Positions 2,007-64,000 of a DNA stretch of 64,000 nt are shown in pieces. The notes under the pieces were generated by a model that was given only the letters and a program-made list of their open reading frames with translations, had not been told where the DNA came from and made no database searches. Origin of the DNA: Apostichopus japonicus (Eukaryota > Echinodermata > Holothuroidea > Aspidochirotida > Stichopodidae); assembly GCF_037975245.1 (NCBI RefSeq), contig NC_092569.1, forward strand, positions 12,740,001 through 12,804,000, read 5' to 3'. Position 1 is the stretch's first letter. Each line of letters starts with the position of its first letter. The position numbers and the translations under genes were made by a program.

Positions 2007-5000
2007 ATGAAGAGAAAGAAATGTTTTCAGCTTTTCCATTTGGCACTAATCCTCATCGATATGACGGATGCCGGAAGTAAGTATATATTTTTACATGATA
2101 GTAAGAGTTATGGATTCCATTTTCTTTCTATAATTATCAATAACAATATGTTGAGTCTTTTAATGTCCCCCCTGGGGTTGTCAGGCTGTCTTGGCTGAGG
2201 GGTTTGGGCATACATAAAGTACATCCTATTCTGTTTTAAAGTTTGTTTCTGTTCGGTTCACTATGTAGACTTCCACTTTTCTATATCACATCATTCTTAG
2301 ACATACTGCTGCAGGTTTGAAGTTTTTATAATGGCTTATTTTTGCAACCTTGTGAATTAAGAGCAACGTGAGCAAGGCAACTTTCAGCAAATTTAGTAAA
2401 TTTCGAGCTAGGGTTCTTCAAGATTAATTCACTTTTATGGGTACTCGAGCTGCTCGAATTTTAACATAATTAGCCCTCCATTATACCTACATATATCTCC
2501 GTCTAGATAACAGAAAATTGATTGGAAAATATCAACTGTTGGCGGGCTGACCTATTTTATTACTAACATCTGTATGTCTACTTGGAATTTTCGTGATATT
2601 ATAGTCACACCAGTTTGTATCTAGGAATTTGCTTTTCATTGTTCCTAGGGCTATTGATATATGACAATCTTATGTTACTTAATGGCCGAGTTCTGAGTGT
2701 TTCAACACCCTTTGATCTGTAAAAAAATATAATACCGTAGTTTACCGCAGGCCGCGTACGATATTCGGTGTGTTAAAGTTAAAAGTTGATTTATTTTAAT
2801 CGTAGACTTATTCGAAATTTTAGTTCAGAATCAAGGCTAATGCTAACGTTAGGCTAACTGTTATCGCGTAACAAGTTAGGCAGGCTATCTAACAAATCGA
2901 TTCATCTTTCTTTCAAAAAAAGACAACCTTTTGCTATTTTCAAATGTTTGAAGAATTCATATATTCCTAATTTTGTGTCTTGGTTTAATTTACGCAGTCG
3001 TTTCACAAACACATTATTAGTATTGGACTGACCGATTACGTAATACGTTTTGTGAGAACTTAAGCCTAGTTCTAGATATTTTTACCAGGAAATCAATGTC
3101 ACAAAACTGCCATATGGATTAGTTGTCTAAAGTTATACCACATAAGTGGCCATCATATATACTGTACCGAGACGATTTTCTTCACTCTCAGTAGGCTACA
3201 GTCAATTCAACATGTACAGAAGCATATATGGACTGCGATTTGCAGTACGAGAATTGCAACCAGTAACTTAATTGATGCTTTGATGATTTCAGTATTGCTT
3301 ATCTATACCATCCAGTTTATATAAGCTTTACTTATTTACTTCTTTTGTAATGAATTCCATATTTATAAACATTACTTCACACTTAACCATTTTAATAAAT
3401 CTTAAGCATTTGTTTTTTTCAGTTCTGTTTTTTTTTTTTGCGTTTCGTTTTGTCTTGTCTTGTCTTATCTTGTCTTGTTTTTAGCATAATTTATTTTTGT
3501 TGCTGAGTATTTTTGAACGCTTGTATACATGTAGTTGTTTCTGATGTTTGTTTCTTCTTTTTTCTTATTCATAGAATTGTGTGATTTTGCTGAGAAATTT
3601 CCATGTAAAGGAAGCCATTGTTTACCTTCACCTTGTACAAGTAAGTAACAAGTAAACAGAACACAGAATGTTGTAAAATTATTATTTTTATGTTGTAAGA
3701 AGATTTAAACATGCCACAAAATTGATGTTTTTCATGTGCCTGTGATGTATGTGTTTTCAAACTTGACGTCTTCCTAGCTCGTTTAATTTTTTCATTCAAA
3801 CCAAAAATAATGATACAAAATACCACTGTTGAGAGACAGCATTTAATATCGGTATGTTTTGGTTCGTTATAGAAATTGACAGTATTTTCTCTTGATGATC
3901 TGAGTGCATGATTTCACTAGTTAAACTTTATATCACAAATTTCTTTCACTAAATACATTTCATCCTTCTCACTTCAATTTGAAATATTCTTTCATTTATT
4001 ATTATTTTCTTCTTGGGGGGGGGGGGGTTTGCAAATATAAATTATAGGTCTATGAGATATCGCCCCCATTAAACTTGCTAGTATGATTATACAATTTTCG
4101 CATTATTAGCAACATTCTGTCTATAAGGACAGCCTTTTTAAGCATCCGCTCATCTTCATTTTGGTCTGTTAAGATAACATCATGACGAAACGAAGACCAC
4201 TAGATCTGTAAATTATGATACACGGACATATTATTATCTGGTTAGAGGGGAATACGTTATCTATTTAGCTGTTAATTTATTTGTGTTGTTAATGATATTC
4301 TTATTTTACACCATCTTATACCACTTTCTTACGAAACAAGATATGTCTATAGTCCAAACTGTAGTGCAAAATAAACAGAAAGAGGACTTCATTCAAGACA
4401 ATTCTATTTCCATTTAATTCATCCGTCTTTACAGTATTACTATTAATACAAAATTGTCCATAAACATCCTTCCTATACTGTTTTCTAGGTAAGACAACGC
4501 AAGAATCAAAGGAACCAACTACTGCAGTCACTACTGAACCACAAGGCACGACTCTAGGTAAGTCACGTAGCATATCAAGCGCTATACTCATATCATGTGA
4601 TAATAGAAGAAATCACATTAATTATGCATTATTACATTTTTCATAAACATCCTTCTTATACATTTTTAGGTAAGACAATTCAAGAAACAAAGGAACCAAC
4701 TACTGCAGTCACTACTGAACCACAAGGCACGACTCTAGGTAAGTCCCGTAGCATATCAAGCGCACTACCCATATCATGTGATAATAGAAGTAATCACATT
4801 AATTATGCATTATTAAATTGTTCATAAACATCCTTCCTATCCTTGTTTAGGTAAGACAGTGCAAGAATCAAAGGAACCAACTACTGCAGTCACTACTGAA
4901 CCACAAGGCACGACTCTAGGTAAGTCACGTAGCATATCAAGCGCACCACTGATATCATGTGATAATAGAAGAAATCACATTAATTATGCATTATTAAATT

Positions 5001-8000
5001 GTTCATAAACATCCTTCCTATCCTTGTTTAGGTAAGACAGTGCAAGAAACAAAGGAACCAACTACTGCAGTCACTATTGAATCACAAGGCACGACTCTAG
5101 GTAAGTCACGTAGCATATCAAGCGCACCACTGATATCATGTGATAATAGAAGAAATCACATTAATTATGCATTAATGTGCTAAATGATTTAATTTAAATA
5201 CTTTCTTGAAAGTCGCAATTAGCTTTCCGCCGTTAAGTTCATATTAGGATGTTACTACATGGAAATATGAAACAAAACATAATAGTCATGATATTTCAAA
5301 GCTAAACTGCTCTTATCTCCATGCAGGTTCTACGATATATCTGTGTCCTCCGAACATGATCTATGGAAACTGCACTTGTGAAGCAACATGTGAAGATCCC
5401 AAAGGAAAGTCTGCTTGTAACAGTACCTGTTTGGGTAGCACGGGCTGTATCTGCAAAGCTGGATTAATGCTGAATGGAAGTGACTGTATCAGTGCGAGTA
5501 GATGCAGCTGTTTCGTTGCAGAGGCCAACTTGGTTATATCGGTGAGTTTTTGTGACATCTATTTATATGTCAGATGACATTTCTAATGGATATTTGATCA
5601 CAGAATTGTATCTGACAACAATTTTTGTTCTTCCAACTTAAAAGTTTACATTTGATCTGTTTTAGAATGGAGAAACATACGTTAACGATAACTGCACCCA
5701 GAAGTGTTCCTGTAGCAATAACCGACTGACCTGTGAAGACTACAGCTGTAGTACTAATGCCGTGTGTGATGTCGAGAATGAAGTACGACAGTGTTATTGT
5801 AATGAGGGATACGAAGGTGACGGTGAAACTTGTGTATCCTTGTCGTTTAGAGACTGCCAGGATGTTTATGACGCTGGACATACACAAGATGGCGTTTATA
5901 CAATCATGCCTACTGGATGGCCTGGTTCACCATTCAACGTATCTTGCAAAATGGAAAACGGTGGAGGATGGACCGTAAGTCTTGGTTGAAACAATATGAA
6001 TATTTCAAGTATGTTTCTGTGACTTGTTTTGATTAAGTCTATTGTTGACGGCCATGCAAGTCCCAGTTTCTGTTTTCGGTTTGGTTGCACTTTTATAATT
6101 CCTTACCAGGTATTGAGTGTATCAAAAATACTTTAGTGGAAGAAAAGTGTGACAACACGAAAAATTCCCACCCCCTAAAGAAAACAAAAACAAAGAAACG
6201 TCCTACATTTATCTTACTGAAATAGTATTCTATTAATATATTCGTGCGGTGTTTCTAAAATTAAGTTTGTCTGTTAGCATGCTTCACGACTCTCATCATT
6301 ATCTTTCTTTCATTATATTTAATCGCTATCTTTTCAGGTGTTTCAACGTCGTACCGATGGCTCTACGAGTTTTTATCAAAACTGGACTGCGTACAAAGAC
6401 GGGTTTGGTGACAGCAGAAACTTATGGCTAGGAAATGAAAAGCTTCATTACTTGACGAACCAGAGAAACTACACGCTTCGCTTTGACATCACTACTTCTA
6501 GTGGATCGACTGAATATGCTGAGTATACAGAATTTCAAATCGAGTCTGAAAGCAGCAACTACACAATGAATAAACTGGGCACTCACAGTGGAAGTACAGG
6601 TTTGTTACATATTTGATGTTTGCGCCTTGCCTTGGGTAATAGGTCAAGGTGTAGTTACTACCAGTATGTTCACAATATACTTTATGAGTAAATGTTCGTC
6701 GTGGTTTCAACAAATCTTGATGTTAAAAATTACCTACAAAATCTGCTTTAAGTACACTGGATCAGGAACCCTTACAAAGAGGGTTTGGTGTAATGCCGCC
6801 CCCCCCCCTCCTTCACAATTCACGCACACAGTTTGTACGGTTGTATAGACGAGATAATTATCAAGTTTATAATCCATTTCTGGGTATGTATTTGATAAAT
6901 GGCACGCATTATTAGAAAAAAATACAGATTGAAACAGAAAAAAAGTAAAGAAATAATACCGCGAATATTCATCCATCTAAATTAGTTGCAATTGATGCGA
7001 AGAACCATCCTTACATTCGCCAGTTTTGGTGATGTAATATTGGAAGAGCAAAGAAGGTTTTGTCCCGAACGGGATTTGAGCCAGTGATCTGAACAGTTGC
7101 AAAAATTCTCGTCCCATCTGGACCCGATACTTTATAGAAACAGTACAGTGTTAGATATTTACCGTATCAGGCGTATCAGCTGGATACCGTTGGTATCATT
7201 TACAAAGCATTGAAGTAGTCTGACTAGCCGATGAATGAGAATATATGCTGAATGAGCAAGCACCAGTCTAAGAACAGAAAATATTATCGAAGAAAAATGC
7301 GACCATATATCTTCACAGAACCATTAACAGAGAATACATATTGAGGGTTCCAGTAAACACATACTACTAACAGAATAATGTTTCTTACAAGATCTGCGAA
7401 ACAATTATACCAAGAAGAGTCACACACCGTGTTTGAAGACAAAGACGACCCGAGACATAGATAAAATTGCAATGTGAAAATAATAACTAAAAACTAGTTA
7501 ATGGAACGCCCAGTTTTTAGTTCTCCTTTAAAACCAAGTACAATATTTACTAATTTAATCATAATATTTAATATCATTATACAATAATGTCTTGTAGAAA
7601 AGCATAATTTAATTATATTATATACATCAGTTAATTTTTAATCCAGATCACCTCCATTAGTGAGGAACCTAATTACAATAAGAAATAAATCAGCACATAA
7701 AATACATAATCATTACGGAATTATCACATTAACAATGAATGTTGAATCTCTCTCAATGTAAATCAACCCCCCCCCCCTTATCCTAATTCCAGTATACTGT
7801 AAAACTTATTTTATGTCCCAACAAAAGTGTCCAATATAACAGGATACTTATACGCTATTGTTTAATGACCAAGTATTAACCACTGATGGTTCTTGCTGTT
7901 TTCCTTCACAGGTCATTCTCTCTCTCATAACAAAGGAAAAAAATTCAGCACGCATGACCGAGACAATGACGCATGTGGTAGATTCAACTGTGTAGAGAAA

Positions 8001-8219
8001 CACAGAAGCGGCTGGTGGCACTCGAATGCTTGGTGCTCTACTTGTCATAGTTATAGCTCTTGCCATCGTTTCCAATACAGCAGAAGCTGCAAGTCATATT
8101 GTACTTATTACAACCTCAACGGTGTCTACAATGGAGGCAACGGGGAAATGATTTACTCTCAGTATAATACTTACTGCAACGTCCAATATGTTGAGATGAA
8201 AATTCGACCAACCTATTGA
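2007..8219 (+). CDS. Secreted fibrinogen-related (FReD) protein with Thr-rich stalk, TIL and EGF-like domains
   Basis: Ten-exon model: 2007-2076, 3575-3640, 4489-4557, 4670-4738, 4851-4919, 5032-5100, 5327-5541, 5666-5974, 6338-6599, 7912-8219. All junctions are GT-AG and all phases agree, giving about 501 aa. Residues 1-23 form a signal peptide (KRKK, then a Leu/Ile core). A short Cys-rich exon follows, then four Thr-rich 23-aa stalk exons. The next domain is TIL-like, with paired-Cys motifs (CTC, CIC, CSC) as in mucins and zonadhesin. An EGF-like segment (CYCNEGYEGDGETC) precedes the fibrinogen domain, which starts at DCQDVYDAG and ends EMKIRPTY. The calcium-site motif DRDND is present. The last exon carries an extra Cys-rich segment and lacks the usual GIxWxxW block. 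By family this is a secreted lectin-like recognition protein; the ligand is unknown. AATAAA signals lie near 8514-8530. The start was chosen because the ATG opens the signal peptide. Confidence 0.85.
4489..5185 (+). repeat. Four tandem 181-bp exon-plus-intron units in FReD gene 1
   Basis: Each unit is a 69-bp phase 1-1 exon plus about 112 bp of intron. Exons start at 4489, 4670, 4851 and 5032, a constant 181-bp period. The intron copies are near-identical, sharing the GTAAGTCACGTAGCATATCA start and CATCCTTC before the acceptor. After copy 4 the unit is truncated. The encoded 23-aa blocks are rich in Thr, Glu and Pro, with small changes (Ser/Thr, Thr/Ile, Pro/Ser). They look like an O-glycosylated spacer. 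The near-identity indicates recent unequal exchange. Confidence 0.95.
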
Positions 8220-20320: not shown

Positions 20321-22129
20321 AATAAGATGTGCATATATACAATTGAGCAGTGTAGAGTACTGCAACTGTGTGCGCGCGGTATGTACAGACGGTCAGGAAA
20401 CTTCATGCACTTGTTGTAACTGTCTGCCATGTACATATGCAAATGATTAGGATGATTCCATTTCTATAGGGTTGAATAACTTGAATCGCAGAGCTACTAA
20501 TAGAAATATTTAGGGTCAACCGCATATATATTAGCCTAATTTTGTAAAATATTCGAAGACATTTTTTATTTATCTGTATATTCTTGCTTGTACTGTTCAC
20601 TGTGTCACTTCCTGTACGAAACTCAATTCAACATTTGCACCTGTTCGTCGGCGCCGTCTATTCCGGCGAAATTGTTTTGTTCAACATATTCCCCTGGCAA
20701 CCACTATCAACAACAACAATTTGTTCTACGATCTGGAATTCGAAAGCGGTATTGCTCTGAATAACACAGGTATTGTCCCTTCAGAAATTTCAAATATTTG
20801 ATGTTTCAATTGAATTGTACTTTTTTAACCCTTTTGAATAATGTGTCACATTCTAGGAAGAGAACTATGCTGTATTGAAACAGAACCTAGGCTCAATGGA
20901 TAGGCCAATGTTTTGGCATAGCTGCAGACTAGTGGTGACAAACAGATTGCTACCACCCAGGAGTGGCGAAAGAAAGGGGGAGGGGTTAATCCCCTGTCGG
21001 GAAGGTCTACCCCCTCCCCCACCCCCATCGGGGAAAATTTTACTTTTGTCAGGGAGCAATTAGGCAAACAAATTATTATCGTGTATTTATCTTTATGATC
21101 ATTTTATGATATGGATAAATGTGACCTTGATTTCCTGGTCAAGTATCTAGTAGAAACATCAGTCCCGAGTCAAGGAGCTAAGGAAAACAACGTCAGAGAG
21201 CTCAAGTCACCGACAATAGAATCCTGGCGCCACCCCTTTCAGCATTTAGAAAAGAGGCTAAAGGTTTGAAGTTCTGTTCAAGTATGGAATCCCTATACTG
21301 TATCTCAAAATCTGAATAAAAATGATAGCGATGTGTTTAATTTCACTTTTCAGGTGTACATACAAAACATTTCCTGAAGGTTAAGAAGTGCATACATCTC
21401 CGTAAAGAAAAAAATGAGGTCAGCCTATTTTTAATTTACTACTTCATTTCACTAAGTTATTATTAAAAGAATGCTTCACCCCATTATGATTTTTTTGTAG
21501 AGCAATAAAATATATGCTGACTGGCAGAGGTGATATTTCTTAATTATTGGGAGAAGGGGGCATACCCTGAGCCCCTGACTACTACGGATCTAGGTAGGGT
21601 CAATGCAGGGCACCCCCCCCCCTACCAAAGAATTGAAGTGCAGCAACAAAAGCAATTAATCTATATGTACCTACATCTTTTTTCAAACAAATAGATAATT
21701 CCTTAACAAAATATTTAGGAAATATTTGCACCCTTAATTATATAAAATAAGGAGGAGAACCCTCCCCATGACACAGATCACTAACCTATTTGACCCCACA
21801 TGTACAACCAACCTACCTGTGCAGACTACATCACAGTTTAAGGCACTTTGGTGTAGCACATCATACTTCTAAGACGAGAGGCTATCATTCCAGGGATTCA
21901 GTTCCCCATGCCCAGTGGCCCTATACCCTCACCAAGAATGGAGTTTAAAATGATGAGATATTCTCTTGACTGAAGTTGGTACTTGCCTTTCTTGCTGCAC
22001 CTTCATGTGCCAAATGCACACTACTAGAAACATTATCCCAGTCTATTAAGCTACTCCTTTTTATTAAATTTACACTCTTCTTATTTTATACCACAGCCTA
22101 TTTATATTTGCAGACCACAGAAAAGAAAA
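20321..22129. other. Gene-free stretch upstream of the transposase
   Basis: Contains G/C-rich inverted segments (about 20945-21050) and a C-run near 21610, but no supported gene. The left terminus of the downstream pogo-like transposon may lie here; I could not identify it. Confidence 0.4.
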
Positions 22130-24037
22130 TTGAATGAAGACTCTGGTGGGCCATCCAACAAGAAAAGTAAGTGGAAAGAGATTGATTTGTCCATTCCTAC
22201 TAGAGAAAAAAGGAGGTATCATCACAAAAGGCATGTCTGTAACAAACCTCAAAGCCAGGAAAGCCAGCTTACTGACAGAAAGAAGAAATTAGCTTTGTTC
22301 ACCAGAAATTATCGGAGGGAGGGGATGATTGACCAAGATCCAAGTAAATTTCCTACACCTCGAATCGAACGTATCAGAACCGCACTGGAAGGTCTGTCTT
22401 CTGGAAAGTACTCCACAATCCATGAAGCAGCCAGTGCCAATGGAGTACACTACGATCAGATTCAAAGAAGAGCTATAGGAAATGTAAAATGGTACAGACG
22501 AAATGGACCTAAACCATATCTCACTCTTGGTGAGGAACGACATCTAGCACGCTGGGTTGTCACAATGGGAAACAGAGGTTTTCCTGTTTCTCCTAAGCAG
22601 CTTAAGGACACAGTCCAAGAGCTGATCACAAAAGATGGAAGAAGCACTCCTTTCCGAAGCGGTAGGCCATCTAATGGTTGGTATACAGGTTTCCTGAAGA
22701 GGAATCCTAGTATTCAACTAAAGCCTACAAAAACGCTAAACAAGGCACGAGCCAAGGTGACCAAACAGGCAGTTGATGACTGGTTTAGAAACTTCAACTG
22801 TTTCATTTCTGACCTGAACCTTACAGACAAGCCCGGGCTCATCTACAACTTTGATGAGACAGGGTTTGGACTGAGTGGCAAACCACCTAGGTATGCCCTT
22901 GGATCTCGACATATGAAAGGAGCACTGCCACAAATGACTTCCGGTGAGGGTAAGAAACAAATAACAGTGGGTGTTTGTGCCAATGCAGATGGTAAGCTTC
23001 TCCCTCCCTATTTCCTATTCAAAGGAACCAGACCCAATTCTTGGGATCCCCTGGCAGGTGCACCTCCGAAGAGTGTGGCATACTTTACAGAGTCAGGATG
23101 GATGACACAAACATCTTTCCAATACTGGTTCCAAAACCAGTTTGTCCAAAACATCGGAAATGAAAGACCACTAGTGTTACTGTTGGACTCACATGAAGGG
23201 CATATTGCCTATGATCTCTTCCAAACAGCAGAAGAAAGCAACATACATCTGTACCGGTTTCTACCTAATGCCACACACTTTTTGCAGCCGCTAGATGTTG
23301 GTGTCTTTGGACACATGAAAAGGTCCTACTGGGATTATCTTAGGAAATGGGTGGCCCGTAATCCTGGGGAGACGATTACACAGAGAAATGTTAGTAGAAT
23401 CATTGGCAACATCTGGGAAGATTTGGAAAGGCCTGGTCTAATCAGGAAGAGCTTCTTATCATCAGGTATTTTTCCAGTAAACAGAGCTGCTGTCACTGAT
23501 GAGATGACCATGCCCTCCCTGACTTTTAGAGAAGAAACCACTGACACAGAATGTGCAGACCAGGTGACAACCAACGAAGCATCACCTGAAACCACAGTAC
23601 ACATGCCAACAACTCCAGATGCACAAAGAGCAGTGTCACTACACTTAACAAAGGCAACAGAAATTCCTTCGGTTAAGCCACAGAAGAAGGCTAGGCGCAG
23701 GCTATGTAATGAGCTGCCATATGATGTTATAAGTCCAACAGCAATAGATACAATGAAGGAACATCTCCTCAGCAAATGCCGGTCAAAAGCAAGAAAGGAA
23801 CTCTTGGCTAAGAAAAAGCATTTCGAAAAGAAGGGAATTGAAAACCTTGTTCAAAAAAAAAAATCTCAAGAGTTTAGATGCCCTATCTGTGGAGGAAAAT
23901 ATGAAGAAAAGGTGAAGGTTGGGTGGGTTGGATGTGACACATGCAACCAATGGTATCATATGTCATGTATGCCAAAAGCACTTGTAACTGCTAAAATGCT
24001 CATAAAAAAGGAATGGTGTTGTCCAAATTGTAAATAG
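22130..24037 (+). CDS. Pogo/Tigger/Jerky-type DDE transposase with C-terminal PHD finger
   Basis: An uninterrupted single-exon frame of 635 aa. Residues about 75-120 form a Psq-type helix-turn-helix (TIHEAASANGVHYDQIQRRA). Residues about 125-200 are CENP-B-like (LTLGEERHLARWV ... GWYTGFLKRNPSI). The DDE_1 catalytic core follows: IYNFDETGFGLSG carries the first Asp, VLLLDSHEGHI the second, and THFLQPLDVGVFGHMKRSYW the third-acid region. The last 50 residues have a C4HC3 PHD pattern (CPIC ... CDTC ... WYHMSC ... WCCPNC). The enzyme family cuts and pastes DNA at TA targets. The intact frame suggests recent activity or domestication. The ATG at 22130 precedes a basic stretch; upstream exons are possible. 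TIRs were not found, so a host-retained gene is an alternative. Confidence 0.85.
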   Translation: MNEDSGGPSNKKSKWKEIDLSIPTREKRRYHHKRHVCNKPQSQESQLTDRKKKLALFTRNYRREGMIDQDPSKFPTPRIERIRTALEGLSSGKYSTIHEAASANGVHYDQIQRRAIGNVKWYRRNGPKPYLTLGEERHLARWVVTMGNRGFPVSPKQLKDTVQELITKDGRSTPFRSGRPSNGWYTGFLKRNPSIQLKPTKTLNKARAKVTKQAVDDWFRNFNCFISDLNLTDKPGLIYNFDETGFGLSGKPPRYALGSRHMKGALPQMTSGEGKKQITVGVCANADGKLLPPYFLFKGTRPNSWDPLAGAPPKSVAYFTESGWMTQTSFQYWFQNQFVQNIGNERPLVLLLDSHEGHIAYDLFQTAEESNIHLYRFLPNATHFLQPLDVGVFGHMKRSYWDYLRKWVARNPGETITQRNVSRIIGNIWEDLERPGLIRKSFLSSGIFPVNRAAVTDEMTMPSLTFREETTDTECADQVTTNEASPETTVHMPTTPDAQRAVSLHLTKATEIPSVKPQKKARRRLCNELPYDVISPTAIDTMKEHLLSKCRSKARKELLAKKKHFEKKGIENLVQKKKSQEFRCPICGGKYEEKVKVGWVGCDTCNQWYHMSCMPKALVTAKMLIKKEWCCPNCK

Positions 24038-44245: not shown

Positions 44246-45195
44246 CATAGTAAGTTACTACTCATTAACAAGAGCTATCAGGATCAAATAGCCAATTACT
44301 GTTCATTAGCAGCGATGTACAAAGAACAACTACTTATCATTTAGTATGAAATACAAAGGAGAATTCCTACTCATTACCATGACATATCAAGATCAATTAA
44401 TACTTATCATTAGAATGAAATTCAAAGGTCAAATATGGCTCATTACCATGATGTATCAAGATTAATTACTTATCATTAGAATGAAGTACAGAGGTCAAAT
44501 ATGGCTCATCACCATGTATAATCAAAATATATTACTTATAATTAGCATGAAGTACAAAGGAGAATTCCTGCTCATTACCACGACATATCAAGATCAATTA
44601 CTACTTATCATTAGAATGAAATTCAAAGGTCAAATATGGCTCATTACCATGAGGTATCCAGTTCAATTACTTACATTAGAATGAAGAACAGAGGTCAAAT
44701 ATTACTTATAATTAGCATGAAGTACAAAGGTCAATTCCTGCTTATTACTATGATGTATCAAGATGAATTACTTATTATTAGAATGAAGTACAGAGGTCAA
44801 ATATGGCTCATCACCATGTATAATCAAAATATATTACTTATAATTAGCATGAAGTACAAAGGAGAATTCCTGCTCATTACCATGACGTATCAAGATCAAT
44901 TACTTATAATTAGCATGAAATTCAAAGGTCAAATATGGCTCATTACCATGAGGTATCCAGTTCAATTACTTACATTAGAATGAAGAACAGAGGTCAAATA
45001 TTACTTATAATTAGCATGAAGTACAAAGGTCAATTCCTGCTTATTACCATGATGTATCAAGATCAATTACTTATCGTTAGAATGAAGTACAGAGGTCAAA
45101 TAAGGCTCATCACCATGTATAATCAAAATATATTACTTATCATTAGCATGAAGAACAAAGGTCAAATACAGCTCATTAACATAAGGATCACGTAC
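44246..45195. repeat. Higher-order minisatellite, about 60-bp units in a 299-bp superunit
   Basis: Units built on ATGAAGTACAAAGGTCAA, CTCATTACCATGATGTATCA and AGATCAATTACTTATCATTA repeat for almost 1 kb. Variant units recur in the same order with a 299-bp period (for example the block ending at 44684 recurs ending at 44983). Long frames (67-115 codons) exist only because the unit lacks stops; successive superunits shift frame. Confidence 0.9.
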
Positions 45196-51700: not shown

Positions 51701-54305
51701 ATTCTCAGTGCTGTCCCAGGAAAAGTTGACTTTGAAATGGAAGTGAAGCATGAGCACACTAATCAGGGCAATATATTGCACGGTGGCCTGACCTCTACCT
51801 TAATAGACACTTTGACAACCCTGGCTCTGATGTCTACAGAAAGACAAACTCCGGGTGTCAGCGTAGACTTGGGAATCAAGTAAGTCACTAAATAGCCAAA
51901 AAAATGGGAAGGAGTGGGGTGTGAGGGAGACTTGTTATATAAAAAGAAGGGTAGGGTTTGACCCAATATAAGTGGAGGGTACCTTTGGCTTGGAAGTAAT
52001 CATTAAATGAGCCTGATCAACATCCTCCATCTTTGATTTTATATGTGCCCTTTAAAGCCACAAGACAGTTAAGGATACAATTGTTTTTAGAGGTAAGGTT
52101 AGTTCTTCAAGAAAAATGTTAACAGAACTTTCAAAGTAAAGGTTATTATGTACATTCAATAAATAAGGAGTTGCAACACACTGCAGTGGGGTATGATCCT
52201 TCTTAATCTGCACATCAGTAAAATACGTTTAGGGTGTAGATGCAATCATTAATTTGTGATCAAAATGTTATAGATGTACAGCAAAGAGAGAATGAAATTT
52301 TGACCTTGGACCTGAGTTCTTGATTCAATTAAGGATGATTTATGAAAGAGATATTTTTGGTCTTTGTTTCTGCTGAGGATTATTCTGGGCTTCCTGTGAT
52401 ACTGTACTATTCTAGTATTATAAGACACAGCCAGTGCTGCATATAACATGATGCAGTAGCAAAACTTAATGCTAGCCTATTAAACTGTCTCTCATGACCA
52501 AAATTGTAAGCATGAAACAGTTGCCAAAATGTCTGTGTTCAACATGAATTTTGTACAGTACTTAGCTTTGTAAAGCCAGAGACAAAACCAGAGCAGAGTG
52601 TCTCATCGCAAAATGCAATCACAAAATGGTCAAATTGATATAATTACAAACTTGTGCAAAGATGTACCATAGACTTTGTAGTTTTTCGTACACAAGAATC
52701 ATCGTTTTTTATAAGAGCTAAAATTCAGAACATTTAAAACTGCTGCACCAAATTTGAACACTAAATTTATACCTGCAAAGTTCTTTTTGATGGTTTAATC
52801 AAACAAAATAAAAAAATATCTATACCTTTGGGTCATATACAGTATTGACCTCTAGTGCCTTTCTGGATTTAATACCCTCTAGGGCCCTAACTCTAATACT
52901 CTCTAGGGCGGGTGGTTGGTGAGGTACATGAGGAGGTGGACTGTGTTTACCACTGCCTTGTACATTACAAGCTGGAATCCCTTTGGACTAACAGTGACCA
53001 CCCCCTCGATATCCACCTGTGAGACAAGTAATCCTGCGCAGTGGTGGGCTCAGACAGCCTCCTTCTGTTACCAAAACCCGCTCCTTTATCTTTCATATCT
53101 CAGGCTATTAAAATTCATAATATTAATTTTAAACGTTAGGTTGTCTTTCTAGCCATTTCTATACAGCCTGCTGCTTTTTCATGTTTTCTTTCTTTTTAGT
53201 TTAACTTCTTATTCTTTTATGTTTTATTGACTTGCAAACACTGTAGTTTCCTTTTAAGGATCAATAAAGTTATTCTTACTCTTACTCACTCTTACTCTTG
53301 ATATATGCAAACCCCATCCACAAACAAGCCAAGTTTTGCAGGTATACTCAAGAATAAGGAAAGCAATATAGTACGTCTTGCTTGAATGTGCTAAGAGATA
53401 GCTTTGGGGTTATTTGGATTTCTCTTCATCTGTGTGTTGTGCAAGGGGAGGTGTTGTGCATGGGGGCCGTTGTACATGGAGGGTGTTGTGCATGGAGGGT
53501 GTTGTGCATGGAGGGTGCTGTGCATTGGGAGGTGTTGTGTATGGGGATGTTGTGCATGGGAATGTTTGATGTTGTGCATGGGGGTGTTGTGCATGGGAAG
53601 TGTTGTGCAAAGGGGTTTGTGCATGGGGAGGTGTGCATTGAGACTGAGAGGTGTGCATTGGGAGGTGTTGTGCATGGGGGTGTTTTGCATGGGGGTGTTG
53701 TGCATTGGGAGGTGTTGTGCATTGGGAGGTGTTGTGCATGGTGGTGCTTTGCATGGGGGTGTAGTTCCTGGGGAGGTGTTGTGCATAGGGGTTTTGTGCA
53801 AGGGGAGGTGCGCATTGGGAGGTGTAATTCATTGGGAGGTGTTGTGCATGGGGGTGTTGTGCATGGGGGTGTTGTGTCTTGGGAGGTGTTGTGCATAGGG
53901 GTTTTGTGCATGGCCTTGGGGTGTTGTGTCTGGGGAGGTGTTGTGCATGGGGGTTTGGTGCATGGGGAGGTGTGCATTGGGAGGTGTTGTGCATGGGAGT
54001 GTTGTGCATTGGGAAGTTTGGATTACAAAATTTCTTGCTTGAATGAATGTGCATCAGTTTCCTTCCTGCTAGATAAGTGAAAGATGTTAGGCAATTCAAG
54101 TCTCTCCTTTGAATGCAAGTTAACATCTGTAAAACTTAATTTGGTTTTCAGCTTTCTAAAGGCAGCCAAGCTGGGAGACAAAATCAAGATTGAAACAGAA
54201 GTGATCAAACAAGGAAAGACTTTAGCTTTCACTATGGCCAAGATTCTCAACCAGAAAGGAGAAATTGTTGCATTGGGGAATCATGTGAAGCACATCGGAG
54301 GTTGA
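48736..54305 (+). CDS. Acyl-CoA thioesterase 13 (THEM2) orthologue, gene C
   Basis: Exons 48736-48828 (31 codons), 51695-51879 (185 bp) and 54152-54305; about 143 aa, close to the 140 aa of vertebrate ACOT13. Exon 1 begins MSSASKALLETLSSVLK and ends NGFDHVLKD, the counterpart of the vertebrate RNFERVLGK. Exon 2 has HTNQGNILHGGLTSTLID, with the catalytic Asn, the His-Gly-Gly loop and Asp in place, and ends PGVSVDLGI. Exon 3 has LGDKIKIETEVIKQGKTLAFT and ends HVKHIGG. Family role: hydrolysis of medium- and long-chain acyl-CoA, in mammals with phosphatidylcholine transfer protein. Acceptors are TTTACAG and TTTTCAG. A frame opening at 51629 also runs into exon 2, but the acceptor and exon 1 homology favour the spliced form. 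A possible poly(A) signal AATAAA is near 55083. Confidence 0.88.
50085..50165 (-). repeat. Degenerate tRNA-like (SINE-like) sequence in intron 1 of gene C
   Basis: Minus strand reads GTTCAGATGGTTCATGCATA, then CCTTTCAATCAAAGG (hairpin) and GAGTTCGAGTTACTCC (box B-like). Overall order and spacing resemble a tRNA, but pairing is poor. A relic of a tRNA-derived SINE is likely. Confidence 0.35.
52900..53297 (+). mobile_element. 3' end of a LINE with a short repeat tail, intron 2 of gene C
   Basis: Ends AAGGATCAATAAAGTTATTC followed by TTACTCTTACTCACTCTTACTC repeats, typical of CR1/L2-like 3' ends. The upstream part is without a clear reverse-transcriptase frame. The copy is 5' truncated. Confidence 0.5.
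53445..54018. repeat. GT-rich 15-17-bp minisatellite in intron 2 of gene C
   Basis: About 570 bp of units such as GGGGTGTTGTGCATG and GGGAGGTGTTGTGCATT in mixed order. The array ends about 130 bp before exon 3. Long frames on both strands (up to about 238 codons, Cys/Gly- or His/Pro/Thr-rich) are products of the repeat. Confidence 0.93.
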
Positions 54306-58696: not shown

Positions 58697-59507
58697 TTAA
58701 ACTTGAACAGGTCGAATCTTCATCTCGGTGTATTTGATGTTATGGTCAGGTCCTGGTAGGTTGTTCCAACAGATAGAGACTACATCGCCCCCACAACATC
58801 TCCTAGTGGACTCAACGACACCAGCGGAGTAGATACTATTAAGATTGGATACACAACAGTCGTTGAACCACCAGGCGCCTTGCTTGATTATTGCACAGTG
58901 TCCAGTAATCATGTCATTATCTTGATCGTAAGTACTAAAGGAACTTCTGAAATGATGTCCCAAGCCATTTTTTTCTTCTGTTAAGACAAAACGTAAAAGA
59001 TCCACAAAGCACCCACGTTTAAGCTCCATGATACTTTTTCTTGCATCTTAGTGCGTATGAAATAAATATCATATACGGTAGGCTATATCATTAAGAAACT
59101 TTTTATATCACAATCTTTGTTCATATTAGAAATAAAGGTTTAAAATAAATCTCATGATTAGAGTGTAATACTGACGGGGGTCACTCATTATATAATGTAT
59201 GCAAGGATCTATGCATAACTATAGAACCCATCCTCGTTCCACGTCTTCAACAACTGGAAAAGAAAGTCAGCACCGAGGATTTGGAGATATCCTTTTACAA
59301 GAATGATCAAAATATCGCAGAAGAGGCTTTTGTTAAATTCTGAACGATATATTCATATTATTCTACACTAGCAATTTTCCCTTCTTTATTGCTGATACGA
59401 TATATAAAGTGATATCTATGATATGTCATGATAAAAACAAGATCACGAAATTACTATACGTACGTTCAATATTTTCTAATACTTATTCATTCGTGAGCAT
59501 TTTATAC

Positions 59508-59584
<77 letters not shown>

Positions 59585-62500
59585 TATATACGTATAACGC
59601 ACATATTTCGTGTTTTCTCTACAAACGTTTTACAGAAAGCTAGTCTTCATTTTGTGGTATTGGTGCTACAGAAGTATTGCATAATTTAGTATTTGCCTCC
59701 GTGGTATTCTGTGTAATAGTTTGTTAACACACCCGTGCTATTTCTTTCCTCGGTTTTAGATAAGATGATTTTTATTTGTTTTATTCCAGTTTTTGGGGGG
59801 TATAGATTTAAAAAAAAAACTGATATCCCAAATGTGGAATATAAACTTAGAACAAGTAAATGGCTCAACTATATATAGAGGGACAATAAATAGTTCCAAA
59901 TATATGAAGAAGAAGTTGAAGAAAATGACATGATTACATTTTGTTATAATTAATTTAACATATACCGAGAATATCGGCACACTTTATGATTGTCCTAAAT
60001 AATTTTCGTAACCCCCCCCCCCAAAAAAAAAAAACTATTATAGTTATTAACTTATTCTTGAGATAGAAATTGGTAATTCAAGATGGCAAAGTTGAAAACA
60101 ATTTTCATAGGCTCACTGTCGTTATTTGGGATTGGTAATTCCGCTGTTCCACCTTTACCCGATTTATCTATTAAGGGTGTGAAGACTCGCGCAAAAAGAA
60201 ACGTCTAATGCCGGTAATCTGACAGTTGAGAATGAGGTGTAACAGAAGTGTTAGACACCACCATCGATCCCAGAAAATACGCACGCAGCTTGCTACCTTC
60301 GGTAATAAGACACTAGTGTACAGTCAGTACATGCATCTGCGGTCAATACCCACAACACAGTGAACATAGCAGCGATGGACATCTCAGGTCTAGATAAAAG
60401 ATAACAAGGTATCACGTTTCATTACTGTCTGCATTTTGTAGCGACAAGCAGAAAACGTCTTCAAACTTCTTCTTTTAACCTTTTTCAGAGCGCGGCACGC
60501 GGTTTGGAGCGAGTCTTCAATGCCTTTAACCTCACCTGTACTGGTCCCAGCTGTCCCGCTGTAAGTTCCCACCGCGGACAGACGGTACTTGTCATTTTCA
60601 TCGTTGATACGGAACAAGTCATATTCAGCGAAGTATGGAGTCCCTTCCCTGTCGACCAGATCAATCCGGATTTGATAGTTATCTTGATTGGTGATGTAAT
60701 ACAGCTTGTCATTACCCATCCAAAATTCATGAACGATCTGACCAAAGCCTTCTTTGTAGCTGGTCCAGTTACGGTAAAAATCAACAGAACCATTAACTCG
60801 ACGTTGGAACACCTGAAATCAAAAATAAATAAAAGACATCCTTATAAGATTTACATAGTTATACAAAACTCAGAAGTCATGGGAATATTTATGTAGACTT
60901 ACGTGACATAACCAAAGAATGAACCTGAATTAGTCAGTTACCGAGTACGGTACTTTAAGAACATAATCGAATATAAGACAATCCATAATAAACAGAAAAA
61001 GAAGATTGGCATTTTACGAGCATATGCTAGTTTACTTAATTACTAAATTACAAGAGAGTACCGTTATTGTCACTATTCTGTTACACTCAGGAGGTACGAG
61101 CCAGGAGGGGGGGGGGGGCGGGGGGGGGGGGCACTGGGCATTTTTATTTTTATTATTCACGTGCATGCACCATAATAGTGTTGATGTGTAAAAGGGGAAA
61201 ATAATTGTGTCATGTATGCAAACATATAAGTCAACATATTAAGTGCAGCTTATAATGTTTTATGTTTGTTGTTTTATAATATTCATTTTCATACGGTTTT
61301 ATATGTTTTCTAATTACATACGTTTTGAGCAATGCAATACTAGTATACTTCTTCTTGAATTCGATCTTCTTTGGTTTGTGATATTTCTACTCCCTTGAAA
61401 GCAATATAGCACACTCGACATGTACTTTCTTGTTATTCAACGTTATTGCCTGCAGTTCATTTAAATACGTTTTTAACACCTTCCCTTATTGCCATATACA
61501 ATCCATGCTAAACAAAAGCAATAAAGTTAAGAAAAAGCAATAGGGCAACAATTGATCCGTTTGAGTATTACAATACATTTTAAGACATGAACTAAACTCC
61601 TTCCTTTTTATTTATAATATAACAGCGGTATAGCATTACCTGGAGGTATAATCAATGTAACAAGGTACCTTTTATAACTGAAGTGTGTTTTCGCTCTGAT
61701 TACATATGTATAGGTCCATAATGGCATCGTACACCTGACTATAGAAAATATCAACTAATTTTTCAAAAAACAAATTTTATGAATGTTGATTATGTGACAC
61801 GGCAAAATGGATTGTGTGTACGGCGAGTCGGTTGAACATTCAACACAGCTTATTTTTGAGGAAGAAATCACGTTTTTTTCTTCTCCCTGTTGTGGGCAAC
61901 ATATTTCTTAAGTAATGTAACATTTCACTTCGGTGTAAGGTAGCGTGTACTCACTGAGGGGAAAGTAGAATCCTAAAATAAACGCTTAAAGGTTTGTCGT
62001 TTTGCACAATTTATCATTAAAGGGTACGGTAAGCCAGATCAGTGAGTTGATTTAATTAATGGTGTAGATACAACTGTTGTTATAACCAGCATTGTATTTG
62101 TATTTGTAATAAGTAATGCTTTAAGTTTAGAAATTCGAACGTAGCAATCACAGACAAACAAATAGAATTCAACGGAGGACAATCCGGATTTGTCACAATC
62201 TTTCAGTCTGTATCTGTGTAATGCTAATTAAAATAAACTAATGACGTAAGTAATTACTTAATATTAAACATCCAATAAATAGTTTATGTCATCTGTGATT
62301 CATTATTTGTGAAATTATATACCAAAGGCCTACAGAAATCTAGATTCTATTATGACTTACCGTCCATCCACCTCCGTCAGCCATGTTACAATAAACTGGA
62401 AATGGTGATCCAGGCCAGTTAGTTGGTTTAATGATGTAGATACCACTTTCGTTAATACCAGCAGTATATACATCTTGGCAGTTAGTGAGCTGCAAACATG

Positions 62501-63335
62501 TTTTTCCATCACCATGGTAACCAGCCTTGCAGTAACATTGACGAACATTGTTTTGTTCCTCACACAGTGCATTGAGACTGCAGCTGTATACGTCATCCCA
62601 GGTGACATTGCCATTGATACAGTGAGCCATTCTTGTACAATCAGGGTTGACATAAAATCCACCAGCCTGTGCAAGAGCAACGTGATTGTAAACAGTGATA
62701 GTAAATTGTAACAATAATACGAAAAACTATAACGATAATAATGATAATGTTAACTGTAGTGACGAGGATGACGACGATGACGATTAAAATGACGATCACG
62801 ATGACGACGATGATGATATATTTTTTTTTGCTGTCGGCATAAAGAATGGATAGCAGTATATCAAAATTAACGTAGAGTCAAGGGGGGGGGGGGGGAACTG
62901 GCAGAATACCGTCAATTTTGCTTGAAGTTAAACATCTGAAAGTCATTTATTTTATATTAAAGTGACTTCTCGATATCTGGCTGCAGAAGTAAAGAATTGG
63001 GAAACTCACCGAAATGCTTGCATTCACACTTGTCATTTGACATGTGCAATTCTCAGGTGCCGCACAGACCATTTCATTGTCATCATTGTAGCATCGCAGC
63101 TGACCACGTAGGCAGACAGTCGGGGTTGATAAACGAGTTGTGTCGATTGAGTGAGAGGAGCTTTCAACTGGCGGAGAGGTGGTGCTCTGCGTGGTTGTTT
63201 CAACCGAGGACACCGTAGTGTCCGGCAAAGAGGAGAGTGTGCTAATCGGCGGTGAGGTTGTGCTCTGCGTGGTTGTTTCAACTGGGGAGACCGTAGTCCC
63301 GGACAAGGAGTTGGTGCTCTGCTTGGTAGTATCAT
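58697..63335 (-). CDS. Second fibrinogen-related (FReD) gene, 5' end outside the window
   Basis: Minus-strand exons visible: 63335-63010, 62666-62361, 60812-60536, 58977-58697 (stop at 58697); junction phases (1, 0, 0, 1) match FReD gene 1. Exon 1 of the visible part encodes a Ser/Thr-rich stalk with two imperfect copies of VETTTQSTTSPP, then a Cys-rich segment (CLRGQLRCYNDDNEMVC). The next exon has a Cys-rich part, an EGF-like CYCKAGYHGDGKTC, then the fibrinogen domain start NCQDVYTAGINESGIYIIKP. The domain continues VFQRRVNGSVDFYRNWTSYK and closes TEMKIRPVQV. The DQDND calcium motif and GAWWFNDC are present. Near the end an atypical stretch (STRRCCGGDVVSIC) replaces the usual Trp block. The signal-peptide exon must lie beyond 63335, probably outside the window. 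It is a paralogue of gene 1 and likely a secreted recognition protein. Confidence 0.83.
59502..59581. repeat. (TA)n microsatellite in intron of FReD gene 2
   Basis: About 80 bp of alternating TA between the last two exons. Confidence 0.95.
60171..60529 (+). mobile_element. TTAA-flanked MITE (copy 4), next to a splice donor
   Basis: TTAAGGGTGTGAAGACTCGC at the left and GCGAGTCTTCAATGCCTTTAA at the right give a clear inverted pair, with TTAA at both ends (60171-60174 and 60526-60529). It begins directly after the six bases GTGAGG of the FReD gene 2 donor at 60535-60530, which it leaves intact. Confidence 0.9.
61107..61131. repeat. Double G-run (G12-C-G12) in an intron of FReD gene 2
   Basis: Two 12-base G tracts separated by a single C, the longest of many G/C homopolymers in the window and a strong G-quadruplex candidate. 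Confidence 0.9.
62735..62820. repeat. Imperfect GAY-type trinucleotide repeat
   Basis: GATAATAATGATAAT then GACGAGGATGACGACGATGACG-like triplets over about 85 bp in an intron of FReD gene 2. Confidence 0.7.
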
Positions 63336-64000
63336 CTTAAATAGAGAACACAATTAAAAGGTGAATTTGTTATAGGTAAATAAAGAGGTTCCTTCTTTCT
63401 CTGTGTTTGCAACCTGCGAAAATCTTGAGAAAACAGGTGTAAATTCTGTTGGTATTTCACACCTTTCAATTAATCAGTTCCTCTTAAGTTTGTCTCTATT
63501 AATGAAAAAAATAATATGTCTGGAGTATGAAACGAACATGGAACAGTAGAAATATCCATAAATTCCTGTTCCGCTCGATTACAAGTAAAGTAATAACTTA
63601 AATACCTGACAGCTATTTAACAATTATTATTTACAAAAATATCTTCTTAACTGACTTCGCTTTTGGTCATTCCACATATTCAAACTGTTTAGCTTCGTCT
63701 TTATAGGACAAGCAGTGTTTTTCTATTCTTGTCAGCCTCTTAGCAAAGTCACGTGACTCTGTAGAGAAACAGTAAAAGCTGACAGACAGTGAGGGTGTGA
63801 AGAAGGTGGTGCTCTTTCTGATGGTGTAAAGATGTATCACCTAAAGGCATCAGTAGTTTTCTCCTTGATGGACAGAGGATGGTTACAGCGCTAGCTCCAT
63901 CCTCATCGCACTAAATATTCATATATGATAGGGGGTTAAGCAGGAGAAACAGTCAAATACAACGAAGAAATGTGCAAATAACCATCTAATTATTGCAGAT
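63336..64000. other. Intron or upstream sequence of FReD gene 2
   Basis: No counterpart of the signal-peptide exon or short Cys exon of FReD gene 1 was found here on the minus strand. It is probably intron sequence leading to exons beyond the window. Confidence 0.4.

Follow-up and report, generated by a model that had tools for sequence, protein, structure and literature searches.

Does an exon that begins like a splice donor take part in more than one kind of splicing, or does its first hexamer only reflect the way in which the exon was copied? This question is raised by a gene within a 64,000-nt stretch of Apostichopus japonicus DNA (NC_092569.1, positions 12,740,001 to 12,804,000; the whole stretch is hereafter called the window). 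A sequence-only reading had described four 69-bp exons starting with GTAAGA behind a pyrimidine-AG acceptor, ending in CTAG, and followed by GTAAGT. Direct reading and a script found this arrangement in all four, with GTAAGA preceded each time by TAG and a T-rich tract, and all are phase 1-1, as had been stated, so that any number of them can be retained or dropped in frame. The same reading had proposed that recursive or dual-use splicing generates stalk-length variants. This proposal is unsupported: stalk length already differs in the DNA, the exon-start GTAAG evolves like the remainder of the exon, and further evidence, on lost GT, a poor acceptor at the exon end and a weak first reconstituted site, is given below. 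Very probably, the locus reflects tandem exon duplication in a fibrinogen-related gene, with ordinary inclusion of the exons and reconstituted donors that are mostly silent.

The gene encodes a protein of 501 aa, open in frame throughout, in the order signal-peptide-like exon, Cys exon, Thr-rich stalk, TIL/TILa and fibrinogen C domain (Table 1). The latter was recognized at 8e-45 (153.8 bits against a cut-off of 22, residues 270-499), which places the protein in the FReD/FREP (fibrinogen-related protein) group, and structures of ficolin, FIBCD1, angiopoietin and tenascin were among its top sequence matches. In the Pfam search of this protein, TILa was above its cut-off, whereas EGF_3 reached 24.6 bits, under its cut-off of 28.5. 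The product is probably secreted. Exon 1 could be aligned in paralogs L009, L011, L015, L018, L019 and L028. The introns adjoining the stalk exons measure 112, 112, 112, 226 and 848 nt. Another paralog, on the minus strand of the window (63336-58700), carries Thr-rich repeats in a single intronless open stretch.

Table 1. Features of the fibrinogen-related gene and its stalk-exon array, in window coordinates.
Feature	Positions	Strand	Remarks
Exon 1, signal-peptide-like N terminus (by eye)	2007..2076	+	starts ATG, donor GTAAGT, ends phase 1
Exon 2, Cys-rich, phase 1-1	3575..3640	+	
Tandem array, 4.0 copies of 181-bp exon-plus-intron unit	4451..5174	+	Tandem Repeats Finder, 94% matches; nhmmer units
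Stalk exon 1, 69 bp, phase 1-1, TAG/GTAAGA...CTAG/GTAAGT	4489..4557	+	reconstituted donor CAA/GTAAGA weak
Stalk exon 2, 69 bp, phase 1-1, TAG/GTAAGA...CTAG/GTAAGT	4670..4738	+	
Stalk exon 3, 69 bp, phase 1-1, TAG/GTAAGA...CTAG/GTAAGT	4851..4919	+	
Stalk exon 4, 69 bp, phase 1-1, TAG/GTAAGA...CTAG/GTAAGT	5032..5100	+	
TIL-domain exon	5327..5541	+	Pfam PF01826, protein residues 144-197
Exon: TILa region, EGF-like region, start of fibrinogen C domain	5666..5974	+	PF12714, EGF_3, PF00147
Fibrinogen C domain, middle exon	6338..6599	+	PF00147
Fibrinogen C domain, last exon and stop codon	7912..8219	+	PF00147

The stalk exons sit within an exon-plus-intron tandem repeat (38 nt intron, 69 nt exon, 74 nt intron), which indicates that the motif arose once and was then copied. 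Both borders of the array fall within the outer introns, 38 nt upstream of its first exon and 74 nt downstream of its last. Neighbouring units share a mean identity of 94.2%, and their exons 95.7%. YAGGTRAG occurs 14 times in the window, versus a mean of 7.29 (sd 2.48) in shuffled sequence, and none of 100 shuffles reached 14. Since eight of the 14 belong to the array and the remaining six are at chance level, the excess corresponds to one founder junction pair copied four times, not to eight independent events. Dual-specific splice sites are characterized by an AGGT core and by more than 10 reads in each role, 5' and 3'; of these marks, the core is present at both ends of all four window exons. 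The splice-like motif at the exon start is real, and looks inherited from one ancestral exon.

Relatives of the array were sought by one DNA search of this genome, which gave at least 52 matches; among those listed, most fall on C9, much as a large fibrinogen-related family in the literature is concentrated mainly on one linkage group. The window and 37 stretches chosen among 52 matches were examined, and 36 of these 38 contained 85 full units, 1 to 13 each. This count derives from 99 nhmmer hits, after five were merged (same place, in the overlapping L013 and L014) and one L013 fragment and eight partial units omitted; stretches L029-L045 span only 2.2-2.7 kb, and exons absent there may lie outside. 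With exon edges projected by alignment from the window gene, six paralogs were in frame from first to last exon, holding 4, 13, 3, 1, 1 and 1 stalk exons, next to four in the window gene; L009 has 4 of them, L011 has 13, and L018 and L019 have one each. On either flank of the array, L018 can be aligned to the window gene. Exon length was divisible by three in 80 of the 85 units, which preserves the frame, and four contained a stop. As in other tandem exon duplication arrays, exon and flanking intron stand head to tail, in numbers that differ between relatives; judged from these genomic copies, stalk length is variable in DNA through tandem exon duplication. The stalk, which is flexible, is lengthened by exon copies placed side by side. 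In L010, a unit resembles the next but one (95.5%) more closely than its direct neighbour (92.8%), and in L011 six exons alternate between 69 and 51 bp, the pattern expected of two-unit block exchanges.

The duplication would have proceeded as follows. One phase 1-1 stalk exon with parts of its flanking introns, 181 bp in all, was presumably multiplied by unequal exchange. By chance this founder would have begun with GTAAGA after its acceptor (a phase-1 AG/GT junction) and would also have had an AG/GTAAGT donor, and the copies, inheriting both junctions, would have come to start and end alike. The likeness gains in interest through duplication: once stalk exons are joined, the final TAG of each would meet the next GTAAGA and form a strong reconstituted donor. 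Most likely, each exon is included in the mRNA via its own acceptor and GTAAGT donor, and the reconstituted donors are mostly silent, as published for many exons of this type in human cells.

The rival explanations considered below are not all mutually exclusive, nor are they all exclusive of duplication. The one that survives best, to which we give a sizeable minority chance, is conventional alternative skipping of stalk exons, with no role for the exon-start GTAAG. The phase 1-1 window stalk exons keep the frame when skipped. Moreover, among the seven in-frame genes (the window gene and six paralogs), the own donor GT was lost in 2 of 27 units (1.00 changes per site). These two, the third unit of L009 and the second of L011, have a dead donor, ATAAGT, and would have to be skipped or joined otherwise. 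Skipping or re-splicing of the stalk is possible on the sequence evidence.

The sequence-only reading is supported in so far as a strong donor-like site arises where two stalk exons are joined. For window exons 2-4, TAG/GTAAGA forms a duplex with U1 of -9.4 kcal/mol, versus -10.5 for the native donor. By this U1-pairing proxy, which is not MaxEntScan, they resemble published putative recursive-splicing exons (RS-exons). Stalk exon 1 of the window gene makes CAA/GTAAGA, to which the same proxy gives only -4.5 kcal/mol. In 27 of the 85 units, U1 pairing of the exon-start site with a preceding TAG equals or exceeds that of the native donor.

Conservation of the exon-start site was measured as changes per site on a tree of units, exon positions 1-5 being compared with positions 7-66; P is the chance that five random exon sites show as few changes or fewer. 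Identical sequences entered the tree once; the underlying alignment has 181 columns, and its units have probably undergone gene conversion with one another. For the 79 distinct units, 2.40 changes were found at positions 1-5, versus 2.42 at 7-66 (P 0.57). Similar values were obtained for a 64-unit set (2.00 versus 2.02, P 0.58), for 41 units from ten loci (1.40 versus 1.08, P 0.78) and for 25 units from seven genes (0.60 versus 0.60, P 0.64). In these four sets there was no signal of selection on the exon-start donor, GTAAG being conserved no better than other exon sites. The GT was absent from the exon start in 17 of 85 units, where TTAAGA, CTAAGA, ATAAGA or GCAAGA are found among the variants; in L012, open over the part retrieved, it was gone in two of five units. 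For the stalk residues as well, purifying selection left no trace in a parsimony count on 63 distinct units, where 101 changes were nonsynonymous and 26 synonymous (ratio 1.46, P 0.09).

The seven in-frame genes kept the exon-start GT in 27/27 units (0.00 changes per site, versus 1.00 at the own donor GT), a pattern that a useful exon-start donor would also yield. Compared with 36/41 in other loci keeping a TIL or EGF exon, the difference was not significant (Fisher P 0.15), array units are not independent and two sites are too few for a test. In all, 21 loci with 68 units matched a TIL or EGF exon, a loose set that includes loci with stops or frameshifts (L016, L020, L024, L025, L033, L041) and L013/L014, whose downstream exons have diverged. 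By a criterion of our own, which is not a published one, a functional RS-exon has an exon-start donor maintained by selection; such maintenance was not found here, in spite of the retention in in-frame genes.

These data bear on regulated or stochastic recursive splicing, in which exon n, once joined to n+1, would use TAG/GTAAGA to remove n+1 in frame and so create stalk-length isoforms. We regard it as improbable. The U1 pairing of exons 2-4 and the 27/27 retention speak for it, as does the report that several human exons owe their normal alternative splicing to recursive splicing that is incompletely repressed (PMC6224609). Against it stand the ordinary conservation of GTAAG in four sets, the 17 lost GTs, the weak first site, and the short adjoining introns, whose removal does not need recursion. 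Putative RS-exons share with the window exons a donor-like start, a 5' splice site reconstituted at the upstream junction, and a coding exon with a good donor of its own (Blazquez et al. 2018, PMC6224609). Here, instead, there are several tandem copies, a good TAG is supplied by the end of the upstream exon, and the case is known from DNA. According to the same source, putative RS-exons make up 3.6% of human exons, in similar share from sea urchin to human, and 93.8% of them are constitutive, which also argues against recursion. In Drosophila long-intron ratchet points an acceptor is likewise fused to a donor (PMC8605326); those lie within long introns and have no expressed exon, whereas the fused site of the window gene stands at the start of a coding exon, open in frame, between short introns.

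Less likely again is a self-trimming array, in which each added copy would supply a good TAG and the next GTAAGA, the spliced stalk mRNA would be a row of reconstituted donors set head to tail, and units would be shed from it in 69-nt steps. If true, these probably secreted immune or matrix proteins would vary in stalk length at the DNA level (1-13 exons) and, stochastically, at the RNA level as well, and the cost of expanding the array would be buffered by shedding.

We doubt still more strongly that the sites are dual-specific, as in the human polyubiquitin gene UBC, so that the 69-nt exon is itself excised as a GT...AG intron, either from pre-mRNA or when spliced mRNA is spliced again. AG/GT does bound both exon ends in 60 of the 85 units of the window and its relatives, and in the spliced stalk AG/GTAAGA would recur every 69 nt in head-to-tail order, near the UBC layout (Duan et al. 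2024, PMC10809524); Drosophila cDNA constructs are reported to be re-spliced at poor sites (PMC8184009). However, the exon-end AG is preceded by hardly any polypyrimidine tract (pyrimidine 43% and T 8%, versus 81% and 51% at true acceptors), it is missing in 17/85 units, and a scan of a single exon, stalk exon 2, gave no branch-point-like YTNAY match. In both systems AG/GT bounds in-frame repeat units removable without change of frame. In UBC the repeat is coding, with sites every 228 nt and introns that are multiples of the unit (PMC10809524), whereas here the 181-bp unit comprises both exon and intron, with an intron length of 112 nt, and the dual function is putative. The same source describes UBC sites in use despite poor conservation, which means that a site may be used even where conservation is lacking.

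Exon ends would also become similar if a coding tandem repeat had gained introns, by target-site duplication or AGGT repeat expansion. Stalk exon 1, bounded on each side by TCTAGGTAAG, and the intronless repeats of the minus-strand paralog are consistent with such a gain, but it was rejected as very improbable: the array stops inside the outer introns, the intron length of 112 cannot be divided evenly by the coding repeat of 69, and single-exon paralogs in this genome already carry the same exon with its flanking introns.

To our knowledge, no protein relationship is to be expected between the window gene and the SmPoMuc mucins of Schistosoma mansoni. The two share a multigene family, a small exon with flanking introns in tandem, in copy numbers that vary between genes (up to about 20 in SmPoMuc), and a repetitive N-terminal region with predicted glycosylation (PMC2576457). 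SmPoMuc differs by a 27-bp exon, repeats of about 1 kb, microsatellites between them, and sequenced transcripts where DNA is used here (PMC2576457). A literature search on this stalk array found no title or abstract start describing such an array. Spliced retrocopies were sought as transcript fossils, by a genome search for an exon end joined to an exon start with at most three mismatches. It gave 60 matches, versus three for a reversed control pattern, none with fewer than two mismatches; 57 lay in retrieved loci or the window and three elsewhere (C12, C15, C17:20505908), and no clear spliced copy was seen.

With tandem duplication as the favoured explanation, the family offers a natural experiment: similar genes hold 1 to 13 copies of one exon, with or without the exon-start GT, and a few with a dead donor of their own. 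RNA from one animal could reveal whether reconstituted junction donors alter splicing in this group of animals, and whether duplication of such an exon raises skipping. Otherwise, the locus is a clear case, within a large fibrinogen-related family, of a protein linker whose length is altered through tandem exon duplication.

The window spans C9:12740001-12804000 in a 671.6-Mb genome assembled in 35 contigs, and the ten exons of the window gene give an open protein of 501 aa. Its Pfam domains are TIL, TILa and fibrinogen C (8e-45), with an additional EGF_3 match below the curated cut-off. Ficolins, FIBCD1, angiopoietins and tenascins are among its top sequence relatives having solved structures, and its N terminus, judged by eye, resembles a signal peptide. 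A Cys-rich exon is separated from the TIL exon by four stalk exons of 69 bp, which encode KTTQESKEPTTAVTTEPQGTTLG-like repeats and form an array of 4.0 copies of a 181-bp unit (94% matches).

Features of the window and of one paralogous stretch
Feature	Stretch	Position	Strand	Description
Fibrinogen-related gene	window	2007-8219	plus	ten exons
Open frame	window	22028-24034	plus	669 codons; presumably pogo/Tigger-type transposase, by resemblance
Complex tandem repeat	window	44293-45190		period about 33 bp, plus larger units such as 299 bp
Complex tandem repeat	window	53434-54014		period about 15 bp
Diverged paralog of the gene	window	58700-63336	minus	domain exons 27-56% identical in protein; Thr/Ser-rich stalk holds internal repeats in a single open stretch (lengthening without introns)
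Partial extra unit	L009 (paralog)	4264-4341		within intron after fourth stalk exon; start AAG/GTAAGTCATG, a possible second donor

The sequence-only reading held that the stalk exons start with TAG/GTAAGA and end with CTAG/GTAAGT (slash, exon boundary), and that all are in phase 1-1. Both observations are borne out for all four exons. A stalk intron of 112 nt (1 modulo 3), if kept in the mRNA, would shift the frame and run into a stop, as read in 3 of 3 window introns. The motif YAGGTRAG occurs 14 times in the window versus 7.29 expected. As eight occurrences are stalk-exon junctions and the other six are at expectation, the excess has the statistical weight of one founder exon.

The proposal that each exon start could act as a donor stood only in part. 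Pairing with the U1 5' end reached -9.4 kcal/mol for TAG/GTAAGA (native stalk donors, -10.5), but only -4.5 for the CAA/GTAAGA of the first stalk exon. A strong reconstituted donor in the window gene is thus a by-product of duplication. In the single-exon paralogs L018 and L019, the exon preceding the stalk exon ends with AAG. Across the family, an exon-start site preceded by TAG equals or exceeds the native donor in U1 pairing in 27 of 85 units.

These 85 full units come from searching this genome at the DNA level, which returned at least 52 matches, mostly on C9 but also on C1, C16, C17 and C22. Units were counted in 37 fetched stretches and the window, and were present in 36 of these 38: 13 in L011, 12 in L010, five in L012 and in L014, four in the window, L009 and L013, three in L015, two in each of seven stretches and one in each of twenty-one. 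With paralog exon edges projected from the window gene, seven genes can be read through in frame, from their first exon to the stop codon: the window gene (4 stalk exons), L009 (4), L011 (13), L015 (3), L018, L019 and L028 (1 each). These numbers count as exons one unit each of L009 (the third) and L011 (the second) whose own donor is ATAAGT, in genes otherwise in frame; such an exon would need skipping or other splicing. In L010 (12 stalk exons) and L012 (5) the frame stays open from stalk exon 1 through to the stop codon, their first two exons not being found within the fetched stretch, and several further loci are broken. In L035, L037, L038, L039 and L041, two units are spaced 479–497 bp apart; in the last four of these, the paired units are different exon types, starting with GTGAGG and GTAAGA.

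Conservation of the exon-start donor was examined over these units. The start is GTAAGA in 54 of 85. Its GT is kept in 68, whereas the GT of the own donor is kept in 82. The 17 losses read TTAAGA (11), ATAAGA (2), CTAAGA (2), TTAATT (1, in L045) and GCAAGA (1). The TTAAGA and TTAATT units define a subfamily of 12 loci (L022, L023, L026, L027, L030-L032, L034, L036, L042, L043 and L045). A fibrinogen exon match is present in 11 of these 12 stretches, and a stop in a fibrinogen exon in nine; no TIL or EGF match was found within the fetched stretches, eight of which span only 2.2–2.4 kb. In a tree built from 79 distinct units, changes per site numbered 2.40 at exon positions 1–5 and 2.42 at positions 7–66, against 2.71 and 2.74 for the intron parts, 1.00 for the acceptor AG and 1.50 for the true donor GT. 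The exon start and the rest of the exon gave 2.00 and 2.02 in a looser set (21 loci, 64 distinct units), 1.40 and 1.08 in ten loci whose frames are open as far as they were read (41 units), and 0.60 and 0.60 in the seven in-frame genes (25 units). Five random exon sites had as few or fewer changes with P of 0.57, 0.58, 0.78 and 0.64 in the 79-, 64-, 41- and 25-unit sets, respectively. In contrast, all 27 units of the seven in-frame genes retain the exon-start GT, with zero changes, whereas two of the 27 have lost the GT of their own donor; this retention rests on two sites, too few for testing, and the difference from other loci keeping a TIL or EGF exon (36/41) is not significant (P 0.15).

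Removal of a stalk exon as an intron would require its terminal AG to serve as acceptor. Pyrimidines make up 43%, and T 8%, of the 19 nt upstream of this AG, versus 81% and 51% for true acceptors; no match to YTNAY occurs in stalk exon 2. Recursive or dual-use splicing of these exons may occur, but is not visibly selected. Neither poor conservation nor a poor tract is decisive against use, since the tandem dual-specific sites of the human polyubiquitin gene UBC, described as poorly conserved between species and of a weakly scoring kind, can be used stochastically (PMC10809524). According to PMC6224609, putative recursive-splicing (RS) exons, defined by score, make up 3.6% of human exons, with at least one in 21.7% of genes, and have a similar share in species from sea urchin to human; 93.8% of the human ones are constitutive. 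Hundreds of human RS-exons are repressed by the exon junction complex, an effect that the same study did not see in fly cells. In fly reporters, earlier splicing of the upstream intron also favours expressed RS-exons, a clear effect on these being absent from the depletion data sets described in the same source (PMC8605326).

The array is best accounted for by ordinary tandem duplication of an exon. L018, with its single stalk exon, can be aligned to the window gene on either side of the array. Neighbouring units in the window are 94.2% identical over their whole length and 95.7% in the exons; in L010, units two apart (95.5%) are more alike than neighbours (92.8%), and in L011 lengths of 69 and 51 bp alternate over six exons. 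We infer that these patterns would stem from unequal exchange in blocks of one or two units. Exon length is divisible by three in 80 of 85 exons, a stop lies inside four, and there is no restraint on amino-acid changes (ratio 1.46, P 0.09). The preserved lengths and unrestrained changes fit a stalk that would be a loose linker, in which frame matters more than residues.

The closest genomic layout is that of the SmPoMuc mucins of Schistosoma, where a small exon and its introns are repeated in tandem in variable number (PMC2576457). An expanded and clustered FREP family has been described in the sea cucumber A. japonicus (PMC5638244). What the present analysis adds of use is the family itself: its range of 1 to 13 copies, together with naturally occurring variants of the exon start, makes the question of recursive or dual-use splicing testable by RNA.
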